From NCBI GenBank assembly GCA_003635315.1, contig PYJD01000027.1, positions 1 to 64,000 on the forward strand: a stretch of 64,000 nt of DNA, read 5' to 3'. Below the pieces are notes generated by a model that was not told the origin of the DNA, searched no databases, and was given only the letters and a program-made list of their open reading frames with translations. This DNA is from Candidatus Poribacteria bacterium. GTDB lineage: Bacteria; Poribacteria; WGA-4E; WGA-3G. Shown here piece by piece: positions 11,996-63,827 of this stretch. Made by a program: the position numbers and the translations under genes. How positions within the stretch are numbered: the stretch's first letter is position 1; each line of letters starts with the position of its first letter.

Positions 11996-12568
11996 TTACT
12001 GATTATTGACTTTTTCTGTGTCTGCACATTGTGTTGTAAGGAGTGTTTTTAAGGACTCTCGTAATTCTTGATCGTTTACAACTGAAACCACAGATTCTAT
12101 CTGTTCCTTCATTTCTGGTGGCACCGGTTTTTTGTCCTTTTGAACGGTTTCGGTCTCTGGTCTAACGTTGCCACGATAAGATTTTTCTTTTGGAAACCGT
12201 GGGTTAAAGTTAAAGCGTATATCCACAACTTTGTTTGCTGTCTTTCCGTTTCGAACGTTTGTATTTACTCTATCAAGTTCATTTTTAAGTTTTTCTATAA
12301 TCTTTGTTTTCATCAGAGTCATTTCATTTGCATAAACGGGGTGGGACACATCAACTCGTAAAATCCCCCCATATAATGAAATCGGTGCACTTTGTGCTGC
12401 ATTTGCCTTCCCAACAATCGATTCCCATATATCATAAATTCGCCTCTCATGGAGTTTATCAGACCATCCACGTTTACGTAGTACACCTTCTACGACATTT
12501 TCTATTTTTACTGTACCCTTTTGTATTTGTGTTCTTCGTCTCTGTTTGCCTGATTTTCCAAACTGCAT
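11996..12568 (-). CDS. dciA: DciA-type helicase-loader protein (DUF721)
   Basis: A 190-residue protein with a DUF721/DciA core, about residues 15-90. Its pattern is V-x-x-VLRKRGWSDKL-x-x-x-x-IYDIWESIVG, then Y-x-GILRVDVSHPVYANEM. DciA is the ancestral loader of replicative helicase DnaB in bacteria lacking DnaC/DnaI, and it commonly lies beside recF-gyrB or dnaA. The C-terminal half is charged and low in complexity. ATG at 12568 is chosen because AGGAGA lies 8-9 bp upstream; an in-frame ATG at 12592 has no clear ribosome site. The gene is preceded by a MITE and a repeated non-coding cassette rather than lying close to recF. Confidence 0.8.
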   Translation of the reverse strand: MQFGKSGKQRRRTQIQKGTVKIENVVEGVLRKRGWSDKLHERRIYDIWESIVGKANAAQSAPISLYGGILRVDVSHPVYANEMTLMKTKIIEKLKNELDRVNTNVRNGKTANKVVDIRFNFNPRFPKEKSYRGNVRPETETVQKDKKPVPPEMKEQIESVVSVVNDQELRESLKTLLTTQCADTEKVNNQ

Positions 12569-12620
12569 TTGGTATCTCCTATACACTATCATCTTTGAGA
12601 GTATATGTAGAATTGTGGTA

Positions 12621-12705
12621 ATACCATTTCTAAGAAATGATGATGCATTATAGGTTTATAAGGTTCTGCTACAAAAAAAGAGACATTATCATTTTGAAAT
12701 TGTAT
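12621..12705 (+). mobile_element. MITE copy at the edge of the repeated cassette
   Basis: An 85-bp sequence with ATACCATTTC at one end and GAAATTGTAT at the other, an inverted pair with one mismatch. It contains the family's internal GCTACAAAAAAAGAGACATT. TA flanks both ends (TA-CC...TG-TA), as for IS630/mariner-type elements. Related copies lie at 56695-56806, 60677-60789 and 63715-63827. Confidence 0.65.
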
Positions 12706-13127
12706 TAGAATTCATAGTCGTAAATCTAACTTTTAATCCTAATATACAGACAACCTAATAAGGTGCACAAACAGACCTTTGATCCTAAATTCCCTGCTAA
12801 AAAATCGTGAAAATGTTGAATTTCTCCATGCGTCGAAAAGGGACAAAAAAGGGAAAAAAGTTACACTTTTTGACACATTGTGTGTCATTGAAATTGGTGT
12901 AAATTACCCCTCTAACCACTGTCATAGACTGACTTTACTCCACTTTAAATTAACTTTATAAGAATTTCCAAAAAGTGTGATTTTGTGTTTTTCTTGCCCT
13001 TACGGATTTTGTATTTTTCAAACTGCATATTAAAGCAGATTTTTTGACATAATTAATGTTTTTGTATTTAGGATCGTTTTTATAGATAATCATCGTTTAT
13101 TCTCTATTTATATATTTCCCATAACAG
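12621..13127 (-). repeat. Repeated non-coding cassette, copy 1 (upstream of dciA)
   Basis: This AT-rich stretch fills most of the 690-bp recF-dciA gap. Reverse complemented, it matches 56274-56806 along nearly its whole length. A perfect run of about 39 bp is centred near 12935 and many shorter identical blocks surround it. The two copies are inverted relative to each other, but each has the same orientation to the gene that follows. No ORF is shared between the copies, since indels shift all frames. The function is unknown; a leader, promoter region or mobile cassette are all possible. Confidence 0.75.
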
Positions 13128-13281
13128 TACGGAATTGGAAGATCTAATTTACATCATAAAGATCTACAAACTTTAAGCTTATGTTAAAAGGTAGCACTTG
13201 GTAATATTAGTTGTTAGATATTAAAATTTTCTTCATTTTATTTTAGATTTTAGAAAAATGTGTAAAAACGGGTTTCAACGT

Positions 13282-14442
13282 TTAACTTTCATCAACGATG
13301 ACGCCTTCTTCAACCGTTAACAAATGAACATCTGGGAGTTCGTCTCCCATAACATCTTTATCGGTAGCAGTAATAACTGTTTGAGCAGCAACACCTTGAA
13401 GATAGGATAATAAATAAGCTCGTCTTTTCACATCTAACTCAGATAACACATCATCCAAAAGGATTAGCGGAGCACTTCCTGTATCTTCTCTAATATACTC
13501 TAACTCAGTAAGTTTTAGGGCAAGTGCAATTGTCCTATGCTGTCCTTGTGAGGCATAGGTACGGGCAGTTTCTCGTAGTATTTCTTCTTTAACGTCTACT
13601 TTCTCTAATGCTAATGTAAAGTCATCACGATGTGGACCAACAAGCGTTACCCCACGCCGCATTTCATCACGTCGAACTTGTGTCAATGCTTCACGAAACT
13701 GTTCGGTAAGATCCGTTATATCTGTGATATCCTGTCCACCATTCTCTATACCGGGAATATATTCCAATATAAGCCGTTCCATTCCACCCGTCAAGGATAG
13801 ATGGGTGTTTTCTACGACAACACTCAACCGTTTCAAGGCAGTAAATCGAGCTCCTATTAATGCAACGCCGGATTCAATTAGTAAACCATCCCATACAGAA
13901 ACCTCATTTGCCACGCCTTTTCCTATACTCAGCTGCTTTAATAAGGCATTCCGGTGTTGTAATATTCCACGATAACGTTGAAGTTCTTCTAAATACTCAC
14001 GATTTAGTTGAGATAAGAGTAAATCAATCCATCGTCTGCGGAATGAGGGAGATCCCTTTACAAGATCCAAAGATTCTGGTGAAAAAACGACAACATTAAA
14101 CTGACCGATCCAATCTGACCGTCTTCGTTGGAGCACACCATCTGTTTTTAGACGAAATGGACCTTGACGAGGCTTAATAGCCTCAAGACGGATTTGAGAA
14201 TCTGGTCTTTTATCACTACGAAAATATCCTGTAACAGCAAACCCTTCAGTATCATGACGGATTAACTCTGTCGTAGAATTAGATCGATGGGATTCACCGG
14301 TACATAAAAAATAGACAGATTCCAATAGACTTGTCTTACCCATAGCGTTTCTGCCAACGATCAATGTAACTGGTGAATGAAATGTAATATCACACTCCTC
14401 ATAATTTCTAAAATTTCTCAAGCACAATCGTTCAAGGTACAT
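13282..14442 (-). CDS. recF: DNA replication and repair protein RecF
   Basis: A 386-residue SMC-like ATPase. The Walker A is GRNAMGKTSLLE (about residues 30-41), the N-terminal motif is LRNFRNYE, the signature region is TYASQGQHRTIALALKL near 305 and the Walker B is LILLDDVLSELD near 340. RecF loads RecA at gaps together with RecO and RecR; recR lies in this window at 41.5 kb. The gene follows the origin region directly, so it occupies the position dnaN has in most dnaA regions. ATG 14442 starts MYLERLCLRNFR, the usual RecF N-terminus. Confidence 0.95.
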   Translation of the reverse strand: MYLERLCLRNFRNYEECDITFHSPVTLIVGRNAMGKTSLLESVYFLCTGESHRSNSTTELIRHDTEGFAVTGYFRSDKRPDSQIRLEAIKPRQGPFRLKTDGVLQRRRSDWIGQFNVVVFSPESLDLVKGSPSFRRRWIDLLLSQLNREYLEELQRYRGILQHRNALLKQLSIGKGVANEVSVWDGLLIESGVALIGARFTALKRLSVVVENTHLSLTGGMERLILEYIPGIENGGQDITDITDLTEQFREALTQVRRDEMRRGVTLVGPHRDDFTLALEKVDVKEEILRETARTYASQGQHRTIALALKLTELEYIREDTGSAPLILLDDVLSELDVKRRAYLLSYLQGVAAQTVITATDKDVMGDELPDVHLLTVEEGVIVDES

Positions 14443-34972: not shown

Positions 34973-35242
34973 ATGACTATCCAATACATTCAAAATAATC
35001 TTAAAAACAACAACTTCACCTATACCATTTCTGAGAAAAAAAGCTGCCTGGATGGTTTATGGAGATGTCATCTAATAGGAAATAACCTAAGAGGTTATAT
35101 TTCAATAATGAGATATTATTTTTTAGAAATTGTATTACAAAAGTCTGTATCAGATAGTCTCAAAAAAATAAGAAGGACACAAATTACACAATTTAAGAAA
35201 TTCTACTATTCTATAAAAAACAAGGACGAACATAGACTGTGA
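34973..35242 (+). CDS. Small hypothetical ORF, doubtful
   Basis: An 89-residue lysine- and asparagine-rich ORF beginning MTIQYIQNNLKNNNFTYTIS, with AGGAAA 7 bp before the ATG. No domain, signal or homologue was recognised. AT-rich composition makes a chance ORF plausible, and the neighbouring DNA is repeat-rich. It lies just after a strong hairpin. Confidence 0.3.
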   Translation: MTIQYIQNNLKNNNFTYTISEKKSCLDGLWRCHLIGNNLRGYISIMRYYFLEIVLQKSVSDSLKKIRRTQITQFKKFYYSIKNKDEHRL

Positions 35243-35487
35243 CAGGGCGGACAGCCGTTTTACTAATGACACACAATATGTCAAAAAGTGTAACATTTTT
35301 AACATAATAGATAATAATTATTACATATGTGATAATTGAAAAGCCAATAAAAAAGAAGGTTTTTTATACTAAATTCTATATAATCAGTTCCCATTACGCG
35401 CACTCTTTATAGTCGCTCTGATAATGGGCAGGAAGGTCCTAATAGCATTCATAAGAAAAACAACCTTCGTGAACCCAAATCAGGTCG

Positions 35488-38202: not shown

Positions 38203-38304
38203 CTTGTAGGCGGGGAATGCCATAAGGCATTCATACCGTTGATTCGATCTCCGAATCGCGATCAAACCTTTTGATAATCGGGAATCGGAATTCCCTCCTA
38301 CAAG
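38203..38304. repeat. Palindromic repeat bounded by CTTGTAGG/CCTACAAG
   Basis: About 102 bp whose ends are inverted repeats, with several inner hairpins (for example AATGCC..GGCATT and CGATCTCC..ATCG). Related sequences with TGTAGGAG and TCGGGAATCGGA occur at 39116-39183 and near 56180-56215. Confidence 0.6.
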
Positions 38305-38337
38305 ACAGTATGTGGAATTAATTATATAATCAACCAT

Positions 38338-38460
38338 AATACCATGGTAGGTTCGGTTTCTAACCGAACCGTTGCCAAAATTGCTACACCGATGACGATT
38401 CTAATACCATGGTAGGTTCGGTTTCTAACCGAACCGTTGCTAAAATTGCCACGCCGAACT
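38338..38460 (+). repeat. Two tandem 65-bp units with GGTTCGG hairpins
   Basis: Units start at 38338 and 38403, each beginning AATACCATGGTAGGTTCGGT and containing a GTTCGG-TTTCTAA-CCGAAC hairpin. The second unit is nearly identical for about 55 bp and then diverges. Only two copies and no spacers, so this is not CRISPR. It lies between tRNA-Ser(CGA) and tRNA-Ala(CGC). Confidence 0.7.
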
Positions 38461-39115: not shown

Positions 39116-39183
39116 CTGTAGGAGCGATTTCCAAATCGCGATTTAACTCAGTGATAGTCGGGAATCGGATTTCCCTCTTACAT
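39116..39183. repeat. TGTAGGAG-type intergenic repeat
   Basis: Runs from CTGTAGGAGCGATTTC to TTCCCTCTTACA with nested hairpins (GCGATTTCC/AAATCGC and TCGGGAATCGGA). It belongs to the same family as 38203-38304. It lies in the 277-bp gap between the SRP RNA and dnaX, which holds no gene. Confidence 0.55.
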
Positions 39184-39290
39184 CTCAAAATGTTCCATTA
39201 ATTCAAAAGTTTACTATAATAATGTGTTCACTGGGATTGTCGATTATGGATTAATGTAGAATCTTATCTTTACCACCGAAGGTATGAAGT

Positions 39291-54924: not shown

Positions 54925-56017
54925 AGTTGTACCAAAACAACATACCCATACAGCATTCACGAATAGGATACACTCTATACTGTCTTTTTTGATTTACGCT
55001 TCAAAAAGAATACTCATCATAGCAGTGCTTTTCTGCTTAATGAGTTGTGCAATTCCTGAAACCAATAACCTTCCCACATCCAAAAAACCGATTTCCAATG
55101 TTGACTTCGTTCCATCAATACGAACACGCAAGGCACCACCTATATTGACAGTCAACTATCTGAAAACAATCGGTAGAACTGGACAAGCACCCGGTGAATT
55201 TCTAAATCCTATGGGACTAATTATTGATGCCTATGGGCAGCTATACGTCGCGGATGCTGGAAATAACAGAGTGCAAGTTATTGATGGTAATGGACATTTC
55301 GTTACTGAATTAGGAAGTCACGGATGGCGAGAAGGTGAGTTTGACTTTCCAAGTGACGTCGCACTCAGTTTTGATACACTCTATGTGGCAGATACTGGTA
55401 ACAATAGAGTGCAGTTCTGCAATCTACTGAGTCGAACATTTTACTCTATTACCTCTACTACACAAGATATTCAATTTGATGCACCAGAGGGAATTGGTAT
55501 TGGACGGAATGGCGAAGTGTTTGTGATTGATACATTAAATCATCGTTGGATACAATTCAACAGAAACCTTGTCCCGGTTATGAAAATGGGAACTTTTGGA
55601 AGCAGTCGAGAACAGTTCTGGAATCCTACTGACCTTGTTGTAAATCCTCATGGCACTATGTATGTTGTTGATACTGGAAATCATAGTATAAAAAGTTTTG
55701 ATTTTAGCGGGAACCCTATACGGACATGGGGTAAGAAAGGAAGCGAGCTTGGACAATTTATTGAACCAAAAAGGATTACCACAGACCAATGGAATTATCT
55801 GTATGTCACAGACAGTGGAAATAGAAGGGTTCAGGTTTTTACCCAAGAAGGCGATCTTGTTATTGATTTCTCTGTAAATACATTATTGAACCCGTGCGGT
55901 ATAGCTGTTTCTGATAGCGGACAAGTATATGTTACGGATACGGATGCAGGGGATATTAAAGTCTTCAATGTGATCTTCAAGGCAAATTCAACCTCAGATG
56001 CGAACCAGCCAGAATAA
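54875..56017 (+). CDS. NHL-repeat lipoprotein
   Basis: A protein of about 380 residues. A hydrophobic signal (ILIIAVLFCLMSC, lipobox LMSC) is preceded by an unusually long N-terminal segment, so a TTG at 54989 (IYASKRILIIAVLF follows) may be the true start. It has six NHL blades of the form P-G-V-GQ-YVADAGNNRVQVID (LYVADAGNNRVQV, LYVADTGNNRVQF, LYVTDSGNRRVQVF). NHL propellers bind proteins or ligands in the periplasm or outside. It overlaps the end of the preceding lipoprotein gene by about 50 bp in another frame. Confidence 0.75.
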   Translation: MTIKRRLFSNLGCSGCKVVPKQHTHTAFTNRIHSILSFLIYASKRILIIAVLFCLMSCAIPETNNLPTSKKPISNVDFVPSIRTRKAPPILTVNYLKTIGRTGQAPGEFLNPMGLIIDAYGQLYVADAGNNRVQVIDGNGHFVTELGSHGWREGEFDFPSDVALSFDTLYVADTGNNRVQFCNLLSRTFYSITSTTQDIQFDAPEGIGIGRNGEVFVIDTLNHRWIQFNRNLVPVMKMGTFGSSREQFWNPTDLVVNPHGTMYVVDTGNHSIKSFDFSGNPIRTWGKKGSELGQFIEPKRITTDQWNYLYVTDSGNRRVQVFTQEGDLVIDFSVNTLLNPCGIAVSDSGQVYVTDTDAGDIKVFNVIFKANSTSDANQPE

Positions 56018-56251
56018 TACCATTTCAAAAAAATTTAACTTCATTATACATTTTTCTACAAAAATCAAAATAAAATGAAGAAAATTTTAACATCCAACAA
56101 CTTACATTACCAAGAGCTGCTTTTTAGCAAAAACATACAGTTTTTACATCTTTTTTATGCCATTATATCACACTCTCCTCTGTAGGAGGGAATTCCGATT
56201 CCCGATCTTCTTTACAACGGATAATGGCAAAACTATTATTTGAAATGGTAT
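56017..56251 (+). mobile_element. Candidate 235-bp element with CCATTTC/GAAATGG ends
   Basis: ATACCATTTC (56017-56026) and GAAATGGTAT (56242-56251) form perfect 10-bp inverted ends with TA flanks. The interior is unlike the 113-bp MITEs and contains a TGTAGGAGGG palindromic repeat near 56181. It begins at the NHL gene's stop. It could be a separate element or simply the space between two unrelated MITE ends. Confidence 0.45.
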
Positions 56252-56273
56252 AAACCCTACTTCAAAATCATAA

Positions 56274-56806
56274 CCTTTATGAGAAATAAATAATTAGAGA
56301 ATAAATGATGACTATTAATAAAAACGATCCTAAATACCATAACTTTCTTTATGTGAAAAATCACCATTATTTTGGAGGTATTATGCAGGTTGGAATTGTC
56401 AAAATCAGCAAGAACAACAAAAATACAAAATCACACTTTTTGCAAATTCTTAAAAAGTTAATTTAAAGTGGAGTAAAGTCAGTCTATGACAGCGGTTAGA
56501 GAGGTAATTTACATCAATTTAAATCCTACAAAATGTAGGAAAAAGTGTAACTTTTTTCACTTTTTCGACACATGGAAAAAATCAACATTTTCACGATTTT
56601 TTATATGGGAATTTAGGATTAAAGGTCTGTTTTTGCACCTTATTTGGTTGTCTGTATATTAGGATTAAAAGTTAATTTATTACTATTATTTCTAATACTA
56701 TTTCAAAATAAAAATGTCTCTTTTGTAGCATAAAATTTGGGTTGTGTACAAATAGATGACATCCCACATAAACATATAATGCATCATCATTTCTTAGAAA
56801 TGGTAT
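56274..56806 (+). repeat. Repeated non-coding cassette, copy 2 (upstream of outer-membrane gene)
   Basis: Reverse complement of the cassette at 12621-13127, with its MITE end nearest the downstream gene start (46 bp). It includes the block AAAGTGGAGTAAAGTCAGTC near 56465, part of a perfect match of about 39 bp, and AATCACCATTATTTTGGAGG, which is not in copy 1. No shared ORF. Function unknown. Confidence 0.75.
56695..56806 (-). mobile_element. MITE copy at the edge of cassette copy 2
   Basis: A 112-bp sequence with ATACTATTTC at 56695-56704 and GAAATGGTAT at 56797-56806. It contains the family's internal TGTCTCTTTTGTAGC. It corresponds to the MITE at 12621-12705 but is 27 bp longer. Confidence 0.65.
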
Positions 56807-56851
56807 AAGATAATCAAGAATGAAAGGATTAAAGGATGGAATGGTAGGAAA

Positions 56852-59800
56852 ATGGCAGGACATATAAGATTCCTACTTTCTGTACATATTTTTATAATAT
56901 TCTTCTTCTGTTGGATAAACAGGGCATACACACAAGCAGAATCGAAAAATCCAGATTCTTCCCTTAAATTACCAACTTTCTCCATAATTAATAAGACAGA
57001 AAAAATAGAATTAGATTCAGGTAAACTGGAGTGGACACTCAAATATCCACCTGTAATTGAAAAAAGTGAAAAGATTAGCAATAATAGCGGAGATATTCTC
57101 GAAAGAGGAAAAGACTACAAGATCGATTACGTGTCAGGTAAGATAATCTTTGATAAGAGTCTAAGTGAAAAGAAAGATATTGAATGGATAATTACTTACC
57201 GTTCATTCCCCTTCAATATCCTAAAGATATATAAGCGTGACATCTTTAAGAATCCTCTGTCAGATGTTCCCACCCAAGAACAGAAAGAAGATACTTCTGC
57301 TGATTTAGAGAGTAGACCGAAACCTACCCCAACCGTTTCCAGTACACCATCTTCAACCACACCATCCCAATTAGAGTATTCTGGCAATCGAACTTTCGGT
57401 ATTTCTGTCGGTAGTGGTCGTGCATTTTCTCAAAACCAAGAATTTCGCATCAATGTTAGAGGGAATGTCTCAGATAATATCCAAGTATTGGCTATGTTGT
57501 CTGATCAAGATTTACCTATTCAACCGGAAGGAATGACGGAAGATATTCAGGATATTAACCAAAAACTAATTCGCATAACACATCCAAACGTGATAGGTAC
57601 ATTAGGTGATTTTGACGCATCCTTAGGTCCATCGGAATTTATATTCTTCCCTCGGGCATTAGAAGGTGTTAAAGTAGAAGGTGATTTCGATTGGGGTAAA
57701 TTCCATCTAATCCCAAGTGCACTTCCGAAAGGACAATCAACAAGTAAAGTCATTCGTGGCGTAGAAGGACGAAGTGAATATCGTCTCAATGTAGACAATA
57801 GGTTTGTTATCGTTAAAGCAGGTAGTGAAATTGTTTGGCTAAATGGAGAGAAAATGCGTCGCGGTGAAAACAATGATTACATCATACGGGAATATGGGGA
57901 TCCTATTATAGAATTTAACAGCAAACACCTCATAACAAGCAACGATGTCATCCGTGTTGATTTTGAATATATACCAGAAGATCGTTCCTATCAACAAAAC
58001 CTATATGGTATCAATAGTGTTTTTACGCTCCCGAGGGATTGGTTGTCATTTGGAGCATCTTACGCCGTGGAATCGGATATTGATGATCCTGAACAGGTAT
58101 TGGTTCTTTTTAATGACGATGATCTGTTTGCTCTCAAACAAAACATGCTTGACCCTGATGGAGATGGATTTCTACTTACACCACCCCAAAAACACACTGT
58201 CTGGGGATTGGAGAGTCAACTAAAACTTACTGAACAGACTTGGTTCAACGGAGAAATGGCATTTAGCACAATTGATAAGAATACATATTCTACTATTGAC
58301 AGAAAAGATGTAAATCAGGCATGGAAGTTTCATGGATATACAGGATGGGATATTCCAACATGGTCTAATAAGTTCAATCCAAAACTGGTTGGAAATCTGG
58401 ATGTCCGTACAATGGATGCTAATTTTCTACCTGTTGGTGCATCGAGCAACAACAGGAGCAGAGATCGGTATGGAACACAATACGCCACAGAAGGTTTCGA
58501 GGATGCATTACTGTTCGACCCAAGTGCAATCTCACAAGCAACGGATGAGAAGACTGTAAACCTCGATTTTAAATTACTACCGTACCAATGGTTACAATTT
58601 GTGTTGGGTGGTGGTAGATCTGTAGAAGATGTGGTGGAAGGACAGACAACACTAAAAAATAACTTCAATTGGGGTGCCAACTTTACACCACGGGTGAGGC
58701 GTGGAGGTACATATTTACCTACTTTCACACGGGGAACTGGTCTAAACAGATCCACATTTCAACCTGACACGATACGAAGACCAACTACAATAGAAAACAA
58801 TACGACAAGTAAACCTACTGAAAAAACATCAATTCTAACAAGATTGCCAAATATACGTTGGAATGAATATCGTAGTACATCTATAATTGATCCTAACAAA
58901 GAAGATATAGGTATAGATGAGAATATACAGAAATCTCGACAAGAAGGGAGTTTGTCCTATCTTCTTTCCCCTTTTGAATTTATTGCCACACTCAATAGGT
59001 TTTCCTCAATTGATGATTACAATGCAGCACGAAACAGAAGACGCAACCGTTCTTCGGGGAGTATTAATCTTGTTGAATTCAAATGGGTTTCTATTAACAC
59101 AAACTACGAACTGGAACAGACACATGCTAAAGAGCCTTTATTAACCCTTGATGGTGAAAATATAGGGATTTCTGATTGGATACGTGCTACTACAGCACGT
59201 ACATGGAAAGTAGGTCTATTTTCACAACAAGCACAATGGGTAAATTTAAAAACAAACTTGGCACGTCGTATGGTGAAAGCACATTCTAATCTCGGTACGG
59301 ATACAACTACCCAATTAGCAGATACAACACTTCATTTTACACCGTTCAATCGTGCAGTTGATGCTGAAATTACCTATGAATTAGATAAGAAACTAACAAC
59401 CCAACGTCGTGAATTCTACACGGATATTCATCCACTCACGGGACATCGGATCCAACCCGGTGAAGGTTTCTATGTTAGACTGGATGACCTACGATATGTG
59501 GAAGATGCAGAAGAAGGAACATATATTAAAATATATCAAAATGTCGGCGATAAACCTACTACAGCAGTCGATGCTGCGTTTCGATTACGACTACAACCGC
59601 GTCTGTTCCTTGCACGCCGTGCCAGAAACCAATTCAATGCAATCAGAACACAGGCTACAGAAAAAACCTTTCGTACAACAACAACTCCTGCGATCACAGC
59701 AAAACCGGTAGATGAAAAACAGAATCCATTCACATGGTTTCTCAACGCATTGAGAATACAAACGCGTCTATGGTTAACAGAAGAACAGGAAGCAGAAGAT

Positions 59801-60571
59801 GCAATTTCACTTTACCTACTTCAAAGTCTACAGGGTTCACAAACACTCTTCGGACGTGTCAATCAACATCATCGTGTGGAAATTTCCCCTTCACCTCGGT
59901 TTAGTTTTGAAGTAAATCTTAGGTCTGGACGATCGCTCAACAGAAGGATCAATACACAGGAAAGACATAGAAACCACCAGACCTGGGATATTGCTTTTTC
60001 TGTAAATCCAACACAACGTATCTCTGTTGGTGCAAACTGGGAACAACGTAGAGAAAAGGAGAGGTATAGTCAACTGAATCTTCAAGGATTTGATGAAATA
60101 AATGTAGGTGAGAATTCTAACATGGATGCCAATGATCTGCCACCTACACCGATTTCCGATCTACGCCAATATGAGAGGACAACAGAATTAAAATTACAGT
60201 ATGAAATCAGTCGCGAAATACGGTGGAGAGGTGTCGGGGGATACAATCGTACAATTGACACAGAGCAGCTGGATGAAGAGCCTGATGCAAAGACACGGAC
60301 GTTTTCCTTTGAGAATCAGTTTATCTATAGTATTTTTGGGAAAGGACGGATTCAAATTAACCACAAACTCGGCTATGGTAAAAGCGATGGAGGTATTCCA
60401 TTTGCACAATACTATTTTTATGAAGGAGTTAGTCATGAGGTACGCACCTTAGCAGATTATAAGTTACGCAAATTCACGGATCTACTATTCAGGTTCAATT
60501 ATCGTCTCCTCTCAACAAAACAACGAAAACCTGAACACCGGTTGGAGATGACCGTAAGTGCAGAACTATAA
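56852..60571 (+). CDS. Large predicted outer-membrane beta-barrel protein (SprA/Sov-like, tentative)
   Basis: A 1239-residue protein with a hydrophobic signal (about residues 5-22). An N-terminal domain has SGDILERGKDYKIDYVSGKI. A region at about 175-400 has GNRTFGISVGSGRAFSQNQE, QVLAMLSDQDLPIQPEGMT, RGVEGRSEYRLN and WLNGEKMRRGENNDYIIREY. Then about 800 residues of alternating aromatic/polar beta-strands lead to a C-terminal barrel-like end (LFRFNYRLLSTK). The DYTVDY-SG-I repeats recall surface proteins related to SprA, the type IX secretion translocon, but this protein is half that size, so the homology is a hypothesis. The upstream region is the repeated cassette. Confidence 0.6.
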   Translation: MAGHIRFLLSVHIFIIFFFCWINRAYTQAESKNPDSSLKLPTFSIINKTEKIELDSGKLEWTLKYPPVIEKSEKISNNSGDILERGKDYKIDYVSGKIIFDKSLSEKKDIEWIITYRSFPFNILKIYKRDIFKNPLSDVPTQEQKEDTSADLESRPKPTPTVSSTPSSTTPSQLEYSGNRTFGISVGSGRAFSQNQEFRINVRGNVSDNIQVLAMLSDQDLPIQPEGMTEDIQDINQKLIRITHPNVIGTLGDFDASLGPSEFIFFPRALEGVKVEGDFDWGKFHLIPSALPKGQSTSKVIRGVEGRSEYRLNVDNRFVIVKAGSEIVWLNGEKMRRGENNDYIIREYGDPIIEFNSKHLITSNDVIRVDFEYIPEDRSYQQNLYGINSVFTLPRDWLSFGASYAVESDIDDPEQVLVLFNDDDLFALKQNMLDPDGDGFLLTPPQKHTVWGLESQLKLTEQTWFNGEMAFSTIDKNTYSTIDRKDVNQAWKFHGYTGWDIPTWSNKFNPKLVGNLDVRTMDANFLPVGASSNNRSRDRYGTQYATEGFEDALLFDPSAISQATDEKTVNLDFKLLPYQWLQFVLGGGRSVEDVVEGQTTLKNNFNWGANFTPRVRRGGTYLPTFTRGTGLNRSTFQPDTIRRPTTIENNTTSKPTEKTSILTRLPNIRWNEYRSTSIIDPNKEDIGIDENIQKSRQEGSLSYLLSPFEFIATLNRFSSIDDYNAARNRRRNRSSGSINLVEFKWVSINTNYELEQTHAKEPLLTLDGENIGISDWIRATTARTWKVGLFSQQAQWVNLKTNLARRMVKAHSNLGTDTTTQLADTTLHFTPFNRAVDAEITYELDKKLTTQRREFYTDIHPLTGHRIQPGEGFYVRLDDLRYVEDAEEGTYIKIYQNVGDKPTTAVDAAFRLRLQPRLFLARRARNQFNAIRTQATEKTFRTTTTPAITAKPVDEKQNPFTWFLNALRIQTRLWLTEEQEAEDAISLYLLQSLQGSQTLFGRVNQHHRVEISPSPRFSFEVNLRSGRSLNRRINTQERHRNHQTWDIAFSVNPTQRISVGANWEQRREKERYSQLNLQGFDEINVGENSNMDANDLPPTPISDLRQYERTTELKLQYEISREIRWRGVGGYNRTIDTEQLDEEPDAKTRTFSFENQFIYSIFGKGRIQINHKLGYGKSDGGIPFAQYYFYEGVSHEVRTLADYKLRKFTDLLFRFNYRLLSTKQRKPEHRLEMTVSAEL

Positions 60572-60676: not shown

Positions 60677-60789
60677 ATACCATATCTATTAATTATTATC
60701 TCATTAGCGGTTGTTAGAAATGAAGCGTAATGTAGCACAAACTAACAGTTTATGCTACAAATAGAGACATTATATATCAGAAATGGTAT
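60677..60789 (+). mobile_element. MITE, 113 bp
   Basis: The ends ATACCATATC (60677-60686) and GAAATGGTAT (60780-60789) carry TA flanks. An internal hairpin is GTAGCACAAACT/AGTTTATGCTAC. It aligns end to end with the copy at 63715-63827, the same length. It lies in the gap between two convergent genes, which holds nothing else obvious. Confidence 0.75.
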
Positions 60790-60866: not shown

Positions 60867-63701
60867 TCACTTAGATGGAACATCCCACAGATAGATAATA
60901 CCACCTTGATCTATGGAAGAATAACTTCCCGCATGTCCATTTGTAGTGGCAAAGGTCTTACTGTCAGGGGCAAATACGATCTTGTTGATATGTCCACCAA
61001 CGGATTTGAATTTTGCAAGATGACGGAAACCTGGCAAGCTCCATAAATGAATATCACCACCCCCATCCCCACTGGCAAGGATTGTGTTATCAGGTGAAAA
61101 TGCCATTCGACATACAGGATATTCATGCCCTCTCAGTACTGCAATACTTGATTGATTCGCAATATCCCATAAGAACAGTGAGTTATTCCTATAACTACCA
61201 CCAACTGCGAGTATGTTGCTATTATGGGTAAAAGCACCTGCATAAATATTCGGAGGTAAAGCATGTTTATTTGTGGGTATCAGATCTTTAGGTATATTAA
61301 AAGTGGTAAGTTTTTCACCTGTATGTGTATTCCACAAAGACACTCTACCCTCTCCTTGAGTAGCAAACGTTTTTCCATCGTATGAACAGGCTAATATGAA
61401 GGCTCTGAATGGCGTATCAGTGATAGTGGAAAGGTGTTGACGAGTAGCAATATCCCATACTCCGATCTGATGGTTTTGTAGTGCAACGAGTTTTCCTCCA
61501 TTTGGAGTTAACGCTGTTATCCCCATAGGATAGCTAAAAGATATGAAACGTAAACTTACGGTAGCCTGTGAACTGATTCCTTCTGGAGCTGTAGGTTGAT
61601 CTACCACTCCTGGAACAGTGTAATAGTTAATCTGGTTTCCTGTAGTAGTATCCCATACCTCAATGTGTCCATCACTTTCACTGGTAAGGGTTTGGTTATT
61701 TGTAGAAAAAGTGAGTCCACCGATAAAGCCTTTTTGCTGTGATGTAAATGTTGTGCGAATTTTTCCTGTTTTTAGATCCCAAATTTGAATGTTACCGTAA
61801 CCATCTCCACTGGCAAGGGTGTTACCATCGTTTGCAAAGGCTAATGTCGTAAATGGGTTTGTATAACTTGTGGTGAGGGTGCGTAATTTTGATGATTTCT
61901 TAGATTGCCATAAATCAGCGGAACCAAATCGATCTAATGCTGCAATTATATCACCTGACCATGAAATCGCTGTGTGGTTCGGTTTTTGCCTAAAAAATGC
62001 TGAGTTTTTCTGTTTATAAGTATATTGTCCAGGAACTGTATTGATAGATGCGATTTCACTTTGTGTAGCGATATCCCATATTTCCATCTTTTCATTTTTT
62101 ATTAGACAGAATTGCTTACTATTACCGGAAAATATAACATCCAATTCTCCTTGGAATAGAGCGATTTCACGCTTGGTAGTCATATCCCATATTGTACATC
62201 CACCACTACCGGTAATGGCGAGGGTTTTCCCATCTTGAGTAAATAAAACGTCTACATCTGACCAACGCATTTCGTAAAGTGACAGAATACCAAGGCGTTT
62301 TCCTGACGCGACATCCCAAAGTTCCGTTGGTCCTTGACGAGCTGACCATCTTCCGTTCAATCTATCTACATACCGGTGGTGGCTCCAACTCACAAGTGTT
62401 TTTCCATCCGGAGAGAATTCAATCTTCGTTATCCATTTCACCCAGTCATAAGGTAGTTTATTTGGAATTTGACGAACTTTGCCCGGACGTTTCACTCTGT
62501 CTACAATTGGTAGCCCCACTCCCATGGCAGCGTCCTTTTTTGATCGATTTTCGCGTGAAAGTATACTTATCTGTCTATCAGTATGTCCATCTCTGATACT
62601 CATTGTGCCATTCTTATCACCAATTGCGAATGCAATAATTACCTGAGTACCACCTAAGGTTGTATTGACAAAAGTATTCGTTGCTAACGTCCATCTGGAT
62701 GGAATAGGAAGTTCTTCTAACTGCATCAAAGTCTGGTAGGTATCAAGATCGGGATCAGGTAGGTTTGGACTGAAAGTAGATATCTGTTCTCCTGTATTGA
62801 TATCCCAAAGCCAAATTGTCCCGTTTGAATTTTGAATCACAAGTGTCTTACCATCAGGTAAATATTTTATAGATTGAAGGTATCTACCACCTTGAATTTC
62901 AATTCCGATTGTTTTACCATTAGGTATGAAATTAAAAGATTCCACTTCATTTGCTGGAATAATATTGGTTGACCAAGAACCATCTTTTTCGAATTTGAAC
63001 AGCCTTGCAGGTCCGATTGGCATCTCAAGTGAGAATAAATTCTTGCCTGACTTAGTTTCATATATTCGGATGATATTGTCATATCCTGTACTGGCGAATG
63101 TTTTACCGTCAGGGGAGAAAAGCACACGTGGTAATGCTTCCTCGGTTTTACGGGTATGTTCAGTGAGACGTGCAATTTCAGCACCTGTGTCAACATCATA
63201 AAGCCATATACCGACAGTGTCTGCAAGCGCAACGCGTGTATTGTCCGGAGAGAATTGAATGTCGGTTATTCTACCTTTCCCTAACTTCCGCTTTGCACCT
63301 TCTGGTAAATTCCATCGGGTATAGTCTCCTATATCACCTGATGCTTGATTTGATTTCTCATCATCAGCATTTTCTCTACCATCTCTATTCGCATTCTGTT
63401 GATTGAATTGATTTAGTACACTCGGGTCTGCGTCAAGATTTTGGATTACTTGTGCATCAACAAGTTCCACTGTGGTTTCGGTTTGTGCTTCTAAACTATA
63501 AGGTTTCTGGAATAATCCTAAGTATTGGCTCCCGAATCCCAATAGTAAAACAATAAAAACAACACTTGATGCTCCAATTGCCCAAGGGATTAAAGGTTTG
63601 CTACCAGAGGGTGTAGTGGGTTCCAAACGCGATACCTCTTGCATGATATTTTCTGTTAGGGTTGGTGAAATTTGGAAGTTCGTGATTGCTTCTCGGATCA
63701 T
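60867..63701 (-). CDS. Membrane-anchored WD40 propeller protein
   Basis: A 944-residue protein. A short N-terminal cytoplasmic segment (ISPTLTENIMQEVSRLEP) is followed by a transmembrane helix (about 39-61, IPWAIGASSVVFIVLLLGFG), a Ser/Asn/Asp linker and then WD40 repeats in at least two propellers from about 140 (SPDGKTFASTGYDN-I-I-Y, NGTIWLWDINTG, GYGNIQIWDLKTGK, GGDIHLWSLPGF). WD40 proteins are scaffolds for partner proteins. The N-terminal pattern resembles the C-terminal parts of sigma/anti-sigma fusions in related genomes, so the protein may lack an ancestral N-terminal domain. Its ATG is only 14 bp from a MITE. Confidence 0.8.
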   Translation of the reverse strand: MIREAITNFQISPTLTENIMQEVSRLEPTTPSGSKPLIPWAIGASSVVFIVLLLGFGSQYLGLFQKPYSLEAQTETTVELVDAQVIQNLDADPSVLNQFNQQNANRDGRENADDEKSNQASGDIGDYTRWNLPEGAKRKLGKGRITDIQFSPDNTRVALADTVGIWLYDVDTGAEIARLTEHTRKTEEALPRVLFSPDGKTFASTGYDNIIRIYETKSGKNLFSLEMPIGPARLFKFEKDGSWSTNIIPANEVESFNFIPNGKTIGIEIQGGRYLQSIKYLPDGKTLVIQNSNGTIWLWDINTGEQISTFSPNLPDPDLDTYQTLMQLEELPIPSRWTLATNTFVNTTLGGTQVIIAFAIGDKNGTMSIRDGHTDRQISILSRENRSKKDAAMGVGLPIVDRVKRPGKVRQIPNKLPYDWVKWITKIEFSPDGKTLVSWSHHRYVDRLNGRWSARQGPTELWDVASGKRLGILSLYEMRWSDVDVLFTQDGKTLAITGSGGCTIWDMTTKREIALFQGELDVIFSGNSKQFCLIKNEKMEIWDIATQSEIASINTVPGQYTYKQKNSAFFRQKPNHTAISWSGDIIAALDRFGSADLWQSKKSSKLRTLTTSYTNPFTTLAFANDGNTLASGDGYGNIQIWDLKTGKIRTTFTSQQKGFIGGLTFSTNNQTLTSESDGHIEVWDTTTGNQINYYTVPGVVDQPTAPEGISSQATVSLRFISFSYPMGITALTPNGGKLVALQNHQIGVWDIATRQHLSTITDTPFRAFILACSYDGKTFATQGEGRVSLWNTHTGEKLTTFNIPKDLIPTNKHALPPNIYAGAFTHNSNILAVGGSYRNNSLFLWDIANQSSIAVLRGHEYPVCRMAFSPDNTILASGDGGGDIHLWSLPGFRHLAKFKSVGGHINKIVFAPDSKTFATTNGHAGSYSSIDQGGIIYLWDVPSK

Positions 63702-63711
63702 CGGTGTCGAT

Positions 63712-63740
63712 ATTATACCATATCTATTTATTATTGTCTC
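63712..63740 (-). promoter_or_regulatory. Candidate MITE-borne promoter
   Basis: On the minus strand the MITE end and its flank read GAGACA (63735-63740), 17 bp, TATAAT (63712-63717). Transcription would start about 4 bp before the WD40 gene ATG, making a nearly leaderless mRNA. The -10 is created partly by flanking DNA. There is no other room for a promoter between the gene and the MITE. Confidence 0.35.
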
Positions 63741-63827
63741 ATTACCGACTGTTAGGAATGAAATGGGGAATGCACAAACTGAAAGTTTGTGCTACAAAAA
63801 AGAGAGTTTTTTAATTGGAAATGGTAT
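63715..63827 (+). mobile_element. MITE, 113 bp
   Basis: The ends ATACCATATC (63715-63724) and GAAATGGTAT (63818-63827) carry TA flanks, with an internal hairpin GCACAAACT/AGTTTGTGC. It is inserted between the stop of an upstream WD40 gene (63832) and the start of the next (63701). Confidence 0.75.

Follow-up and report, generated by a model that had tools for sequence, protein, structure and literature searches.

A non-coding cassette repeated in one orientation before unrelated genes of a Candidatus Poribacteria genome: a candidate mobile promoter unit

The window analysed here comprises 64,000 nucleotides from the draft genome of a sponge-associated bacterial lineage, Candidatus Poribacteria. 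Between its recF-like gene and dciA lies a non-coding stretch that returns, inverted, in front of a second, large gene, and this raises the question of why nearly the same DNA should precede two unrelated genes. An earlier reading made from the sequence alone had taken the repeat for a mobile regulatory leader or a structured RNA and not for a random duplication. The recurrence itself is confirmed: the recF-dciA gap (12593-13281) corresponds to the region at about 56018-56805 in six inverted blocks arranged in the same order, which are 78-97% complementary between copy 1 and copy 2, with the 39-nt end block at 97%. The end of the cassette had been placed at 13127, which does not hold, as the match runs on to about 13262. 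The two distances given for it are correct, 46 bp for the second gene (56805 to 56852) and 53 bp for dciA provided that the ATG at 12568 is its start. The window also contains a third relative of the cassette, which is more diverged (type II in Table 1).

Table 1. Features of the two cassette copies, their neighbouring genes and the third relative in the window
Feature	Position	Strand	Remarks
Type I cassette, copy 1	12622..13262	-	641 bp; sense toward dciA
Ends and flanks, copy 1	12619-12621 and 13263-13265 (TAA flanks)		ends TACCATTTC and decayed partner GAAAAATGTG
Conserved core, copy 1	12729..13093	-	part common to the congener G011
MITE-like end module, copy 1	12622..12705	.	between core and gene; TACCATTTCT...GAAATTGTAT
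Box P1, copy 1	12732..12746	-	TATATTAGGATTAAA; candidate -10 region toward dciA; columns in lowest change class
Box P2, copy 1	12778..12792	-	second TTTAGGAT box, same direction as P1
Dyad, copy 1, GACACA form	12871..12887	-	TGACACA-N3-TGTGTCA, beside AAAAAGTGTAACTTTTT
Box P3, copy 1	13065..13076	+	TATTTAGGATCG after TTGACA; divergent, away from dciA
dciA	11996..12592	-	gene downstream of copy 1; Pfam DciA PF05258, 6.2e-14
Probable start of dciA	12568		ATG after AGGAGA (our own reading); longest ORF starts at 12592
recF-like gene	13282..14442	-	Pfam SMC_N (RecF/RecN/SMC), 2.6e-20; upstream neighbour, split from dciA by the cassette
Type II cassette signature	35241..35299	+	dyad and GTGTAAC module in a different context; sense toward the + strand ORF at 35424
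Type I cassette, copy 2	56018..56805	+	788 bp; TACCATTTC...GAAATGGTA
Flanks, copy 2	56015-56017 and 56806-56808		TAA; left TAA is the stop codon of the upstream ORF
Conserved core, copy 2	56308..56672	+	
Dyad, copy 2, CCTACA form	56524..56540	+	TCCTACA-N3-TGTAGGA
Box P2, copy 2	56609..56623	+	
Box P1, copy 2	56655..56669	+	promoter scanner: TTTGCA-N17-TATATT
Large gene downstream of copy 2	56852..60571	+	no Pfam match at 1e-6

A dispersed family and its insertion into two compact gene pairs

The core pattern (28 specified bases, up to 3 mismatches) occurs at 65 places in the 4.33 Mb host draft genome, 35 in forward and 30 in reverse orientation, against none for the reversed control pattern, and chance is thus no explanation for the repeat, as the sequence-only reading had held. 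Searching the whole genome with either copy also returned many matches among the best 40 candidates scored per search, and further diverged copies exist beyond the 65 (L230, L263, L269). The core pattern had no match in 144 other genomes, 17 of them from the same genus; a related core was detected in one congener, G011, mostly at 69-82% identity. No description of repeats of this kind in Poribacteria was found in the open-access literature searched. A reading of the boxes as Bacteroidetes promoters was dropped, the only named match to the pattern being Candidatus Poribacteria.

At the two sites compared, the cassette sits in gene pairs that relatives keep compact and that are probably operons. 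Of 17 relatives in the genus, 15 yielded dciA; their recF-dciA gap ranges from -7 to 74 bp in 14 (20-74 bp in 13) and measures 196 bp in the remaining one, against 689 bp in the host. For the second gene, detected in 16 of the 17 relatives, the distance to the nearest co-directional upstream ORF is 26-49 bp in 13 cases and 102, 146 and 151 bp in the others, against 834 bp in the host. For copy 2, an empty site is preserved in G011 (L210), which reads GAATAAGAT with a single TAA; the host reads GAATAA-TACCATTTC...GAAATGGTA-TAAGAT at this site, and the TAA, the stop codon of the upstream ORF, is duplicated. Copy 1 is consistent with the same kind of insertion, if less sharply so.

The sequence-only reading had called the end of the repeat that faces the gene a MITE, which is appropriate for the outer ends: copy 2 carries the terminal inverted repeats TACCATTTC and GAAATGGTA, one end is decayed in copy 1, and no coding capacity was found (tested on the core). 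According to an exact-string scan, most of 43 copies have no intact end pair around the core, and the ends are thus often eroded or missing. The name does not fit the conserved core, which is a separate unit. Column identity is about 0.9 in the core and about 0.6 in the end modules, partly since some copies lack end modules. The full TACCATTTC end is absent from 18 G011 extracts, one of which held a partial string, and at the G011 locus L176 the P1 box is exactly where the core stops, homology to the host counterpart starting right after it. A congener core without MITE ends, together with this boundary, indicates that the core is older than the MITE vehicle or independent of it.

Among the 30 PF01609 loci examined (of 33 matches), no transposase gene could be tied to the cassette ends; TACCATTTC-like strings occur at several of these loci, none of them placeable at the two ends of an element, and many of the loci stop at contig ends. 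An IS5-like parent was likewise not found among them. Many DDE_Tnp_1 matches lie at host contig ends (L314-L342), and the assembly is therefore probably broken at insertion sequences. The window contains other small repeats. Two 111-bp MITEs with the TACCAT-type ends of the cassette (60678-60788 and 63716-63826) flank the gene at 60867-63701, one of them in a convergent gap. A dispersed element at 38245-38341 and 39125-39221 carries a GGGAATCGGAATTCCC-type inverted repeat, and a terminator-like stem akin to it is found inside cassette copy 2 (56188-56203). Two 56-bp direct repeats, 95% alike and with GGTTCGGTTTCTAACCGAACC hairpins, lie beside tRNA genes at 38337-38457.

Orientation of the cassette and the genes it precedes

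All 65 copies were taken together with flanks of 3.5 kb, or less near contig ends, and the closest ORFs of 90 aa or more were considered. The gene on the dciA side of the cassette (the P1 side) points away from it in 63 of 65 copies (the exceptions are L143 and L166), a location upstream of genes as expected for a promoter MITE of the Correia type; genes on the other side are of mixed orientation (36 vs 29). The count of 63 overstates the orientation test, because copies in divergent gaps (28 of 65) satisfy it either way and are informative through distance alone. Where both neighbouring genes run in the same direction, the P1 side faces the gene start in 35 of 36 gaps (binomial 1e-9); for divergent gaps, the distance to the cassette is shorter for the P1-side gene in 26 of 28 cases (3e-6). 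In G011, 17 of 17 core hits at 15 loci agree in orientation (counting hits that reach model position 350, with one partial hit at L190 dropped); tandem gaps agree in 5 of 5 and divergent gaps, by distance, in 8 of 9, three further cases having no gene seen on the other side, for loci that were picked from the better hits and whose flanking ORFs are in part short or overlap the core. Of 63 cassettes, 1 lies in a convergent gap, compared with 19 convergent ones among 141 further gaps of the surrounding stretches (Fisher 0.009; the gap table covers 63 of the 65 copies, and the control gaps come from stretches chosen around cassettes). Copies are thus not randomly placed relative to genes in the host draft genome, and the strict orientation in tandem and divergent gaps and the two empty sites strongly support the earlier proposal of a mobile regulatory cassette with a fixed orientation.

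Random insertion followed by the purging of harmful copies only, with the cassette itself having no used function, would be in line with the frequency of non-autonomous repeats in bacterial intergenic DNA, as stated in the available part of one account (PMC10969869). Neutral copies should, however, gather in convergent gaps, as BOX, RUP and SPRITE repeats of the pneumococcus do according to the part of their description we draw on (PMC3049150), and a single cassette was found there; the heterogeneity among columns on the terminal branches of the core tree, described below, also speaks against this explanation. We disfavour it and consider it very improbable.

Pfam searches with 64 downstream proteins (one of the 65 copies gave none) left 11 of the 64 without a match at 1e-6. 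Matches among the others include DciA, GlyRS, a class I tRNA synthetase, an FtsH-like protein, LepA, cytochrome bd subunit I, Dus, a SurA-like protein and sulfatases, and the genes thus have mixed roles in replication, translation, respiration, proteolysis and the cell envelope, in addition to sulfatases and unknowns. A regulon with a shared function was rejected, as the downstream genes show no common theme by Pfam; their unrelated functions speak for a general supply of promoters and not for a classical regulon.

Conserved boxes, a two-form dyad and further cassette types

The tree of the core is star-like (terminal branches 6.07, internal branches 0.98), with 11 of 62 internal nodes having a support of at least 0.9. 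On the terminal branches 100 of 370 columns are unchanged versus 10.7 expected (dispersion 4.8), and substitutions crowd into spacers while boxes are fixed, a pattern that gene conversion between copies would blur and in which, given the weak resolution of the tree, parsimony may assign changes to the wrong branches. It looks like the conservation of protein-binding or promoter boxes in DNA. Read toward the gene, the core consists of the divergent box P3, a long near-invariant block with the dyad and AAAAAGTGTAACTTTTT, then P2 and P1; the consensus sequences of P2 and P1 both end in TTAGGATTAAA. With up to 2 mismatches P1 is found in 64 of 65 copies and P2 in 64 of 64, and P3 in 51 of 64 with up to 1 mismatch; in the window, a mismatch-free box occurs at the two cassettes alone. 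The best -35-like hexamer within 15-19 nt of P1 is TTTGCA, located 16 or 17 nt before the box in 52 of 64 copies across a variable spacer.

A generic sigma-70 scan revealed no excess over shuffled sequences for either copy (2 vs 4.6 for copy 1, 5 vs 6.0 for copy 2), and the promoter claim thus rests on conservation and direction and not on consensus strength. The distance from P1 to the start of the gene, which is long and variable (median 248 nt, range -59 to 1065, 63 copies), counts against reading the boxes as promoters; the negative value probably belongs to L118, whose start is doubtful. The same is true for one congener locus read closely, in which the TTAGGAT box is kept and the -35-like half of P1 is lost. 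In addition, with a divergent P3 the cassette should be of use in either orientation, but the orientation is fixed.

Could the conservation serve mobility alone? A selfish MITE with target-directed insertion beside start codons, in one orientation, would explain the MITE-like ends with the TAA duplication, the strict orientation, and the one insertion located exactly at an upstream stop codon. The most constrained part, however, is the interior and not the ends, in the congener both core and orientation occur in the absence of such ends, and the substitution pattern lies on terminal branches, that is, it arose largely after insertion. Moreover, two short, solitary MITEs with ends of this kind are situated in convergent gaps (in a small control of 10 such elements outside cassette gaps, of 29 hits). 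Taken together, we regard a purely selfish element as unlikely.

Coding capacity does not account for the conservation either. The sequence-only reading had seen no frame conserved between the copies, in agreement with our finding of no coding constraint in any of the six frames of the 365-bp core (dN/dS 0.91 in the whole open frame and 0.66-1.6 in the other five). The open frame in question is a sense ORF of about 58 codons that begins with ATGACAG; of the 57 copies with the ATG, many keep this frame open (mean 55 codons), and dN/dS is somewhat lower, 0.78, in the first 25 codons. Over its whole length, though, the ratio is within the span of the other frames and purifying selection on the frame was not found, several copies are truncated or shifted, and 11 of the 13 G011 copies shown lack the ATG, those of the CC form having one A fewer, which shifts the frame. 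A small protein encoded in the core is thereby in effect refuted. An open frame that matches in type II was discarded as a by-product of the shared DNA module, a judgement based on the frameshift in G011 copies of the CC form.

The suggestion of a structured RNA was not supported. A gathering scan of the window with Rfam gave 9 matches, none of them at the element, and three copies searched at E values up to 1 had no match. On both strands of 78 aligned copies (those of 91 hits whose central block holds over 200 residues), alifold predicted one hairpin of 6-7 bp, the dyad, in 374 columns, and the single-sequence fold of one copy was no better than shuffles (z -0.71). Neither a match to a described family nor a conserved multi-helix structure with covariation was thus obtained, and an RNA family was rejected on the Rfam scans and on an alifold result showing the dyad alone.

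The dyad occurs in two forms, GACACA/TGTGTC in 41 (5 of them with TGTGAC as the right arm) and CCTACA/TGTAGG in 24 of the 65 host copies. Its six columns are linked near-completely (mutual information 0.95), compared with 0.49 for the loop column and 0.14 for the next-best core column; the G011 dyads read GTCACA/TGTGAC and CCTACA/TGTAGG. Two putative operator types fit these data best, although a hairpin, formed either in RNA or in extruded DNA, may be an alternative. As RNA, the dyad could act in a transcribed leader or attenuator, in which the mRNA starts upstream of it and the dyad with outer TTACAC/GTGTAA arms forms a hairpin before a T-run that controls read-through. The fixed orientation of the cassette to the gene, the joint change of both dyad arms, with more paired variants in G011, and the T-run that follows the dyad in the sense direction would all suit such a leader, as would a terminator scan that flags the copy 2 dyad, though on the antisense strand. 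Consensus pairing is nevertheless limited to the dyad, single changes on one of the possible outer arms go unmatched on the other, and the Rfam and folding results above speak against it; furthermore, a hairpin kept for its structure alone would be expected to pass through many stems, not two main forms. We therefore see little likelihood that the cassette works in this way.

The dyad is not confined to type I cassettes. A signature of the dyad plus GTGTAAC has 145 matches in the host genome (up to 2 mismatches; control 0), 12 in G011 and one or two in 8 other genomes, with none in the remaining 78 of 88 genomes searched. Type II cassettes are found at 36 places in the host, and their downstream gene is co-directional in 25 of 29 cases with a downstream ORF (30 of the 36 loci were read). 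Type III comprises six loci with a TTGACA-N17/18-TATAGT-like sequence downstream; its promoter pattern has 3 matches in the genome at up to 3 mismatches, which makes it a small group. Both dyad forms are present in types II and III. Signature loci outside the 65 have a co-directional downstream gene in 19 of 22 examined, a set that overlaps the type II set and includes 2 diverged type I copies (L263, L269) and 4 loci sharing a gap with a type I copy. Seven loci (L125, L174, L116, L146, L131, L148, L171) show a second, stand-alone dyad module of about 50 bp, which lies further upstream within the same intergenic region and has the same orientation. The type II consensus (L281-L310) is interrupted midway by a MITE-like insert and also has a second dyad, GTTACGA-TT-TCGTAAC.

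A candidate mobile promoter and its relation to known repeats

The mobile regulatory part of the sequence-only reading is well supported and its structured-RNA part is not. We think it probable, with some reservation, that the cassette is a portable, mobile promoter/operator unit carried in a MITE-like element. A vehicle with TACCATTTC ends, TAA target duplication and no coding capacity, presumably moved by a trans-acting transposase, would have carried it to at least 65 sites. Placed between two genes, it would cut the downstream gene off from its old promoter or operon and at the same time supply new transcription starts, with P1 and P2 directed toward the gene and P3 away from it. The conserved cluster of sites between these boxes would include the two-form dyad, most simply as two operators for two related dimeric regulators. 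Copies would be retained only if they serve a downstream gene, and such retention would give rise to the fixed orientation, to the near-lack of copies in convergent gaps, and to the conservation of footprints. We put forward a broader scheme tentatively and hold it to be rather doubtful: several promoter cassettes unrelated to one another would have acquired the same control module, whose two operator codes are interchangeable. Spreading by transposition and splitting operons, these cassettes might have put about a hundred genes of unrelated function, among them core genes of replication, translation and respiration, under one two-regulator system.

The copying of promoters to new genes has been termed promoter propagation, or mobile promoters, in prokaryotes, and we liken the cassette to these by concept alone. 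The Chunjie MITE of Geobacter uraniireducens reportedly left the structure of an operon undisturbed, as the title of a cited paper has it. Like the cassette, this MITE was inserted inside an operon; it measures 178-235 bp, and the available part of its description mentions no directional promoter role (PMC10969869). The closest likeness is to the Correia elements (CREE/NEMIS) of Neisseria, described in the parts of the reports available to us as non-coding, multi-copy MITEs of 105-204 bp with terminal inverted repeats that lie mostly upstream of genes, for which inversion has been reported and which carry sigma-70-like and putative divergent promoters and a protein-binding (IHF) site (PMC10969869, PMC2229807); the poribacterial cassette has promoter-like boxes. 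Compared with these descriptions, the cassette is set apart by the size of its copies in the window, by its one-way placement in tandem gaps, by a core that exists outside the MITE, and by its exchangeable two-form dyad. We tentatively file the cassette as a promoter-bearing MITE that may work like Correia elements, its new features being directionality, the independent conserved core, and the exchangeable dyad. BOX, RUP and SPRITE, of which dozens of intergenic, non-autonomous copies are described in the part of the pneumococcal account used here, share this dispersed character, and parts of BOX can alter downstream expression in Streptococcus pneumoniae; in contrast to the cassette, for which no global fold was detected, BOX and RUP are described there as tightly folded (PMC3049150).

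Promoter-bearing MITEs are known, and pneumococcal repeats, as far as this partial source goes, are enriched between convergent genes, where they are least harmful (PMC3049150). The cassette family does the opposite: it avoids convergent gaps, lies almost only before genes and in one direction, breaks up compact gene pairs, and selection seems to act on its copies. Should this be confirmed, the family would represent a natural case in which transposition has rewired transcription genome-wide in an uncultured phylum, and the two-form dyad would provide a direct handle for finding the regulators.
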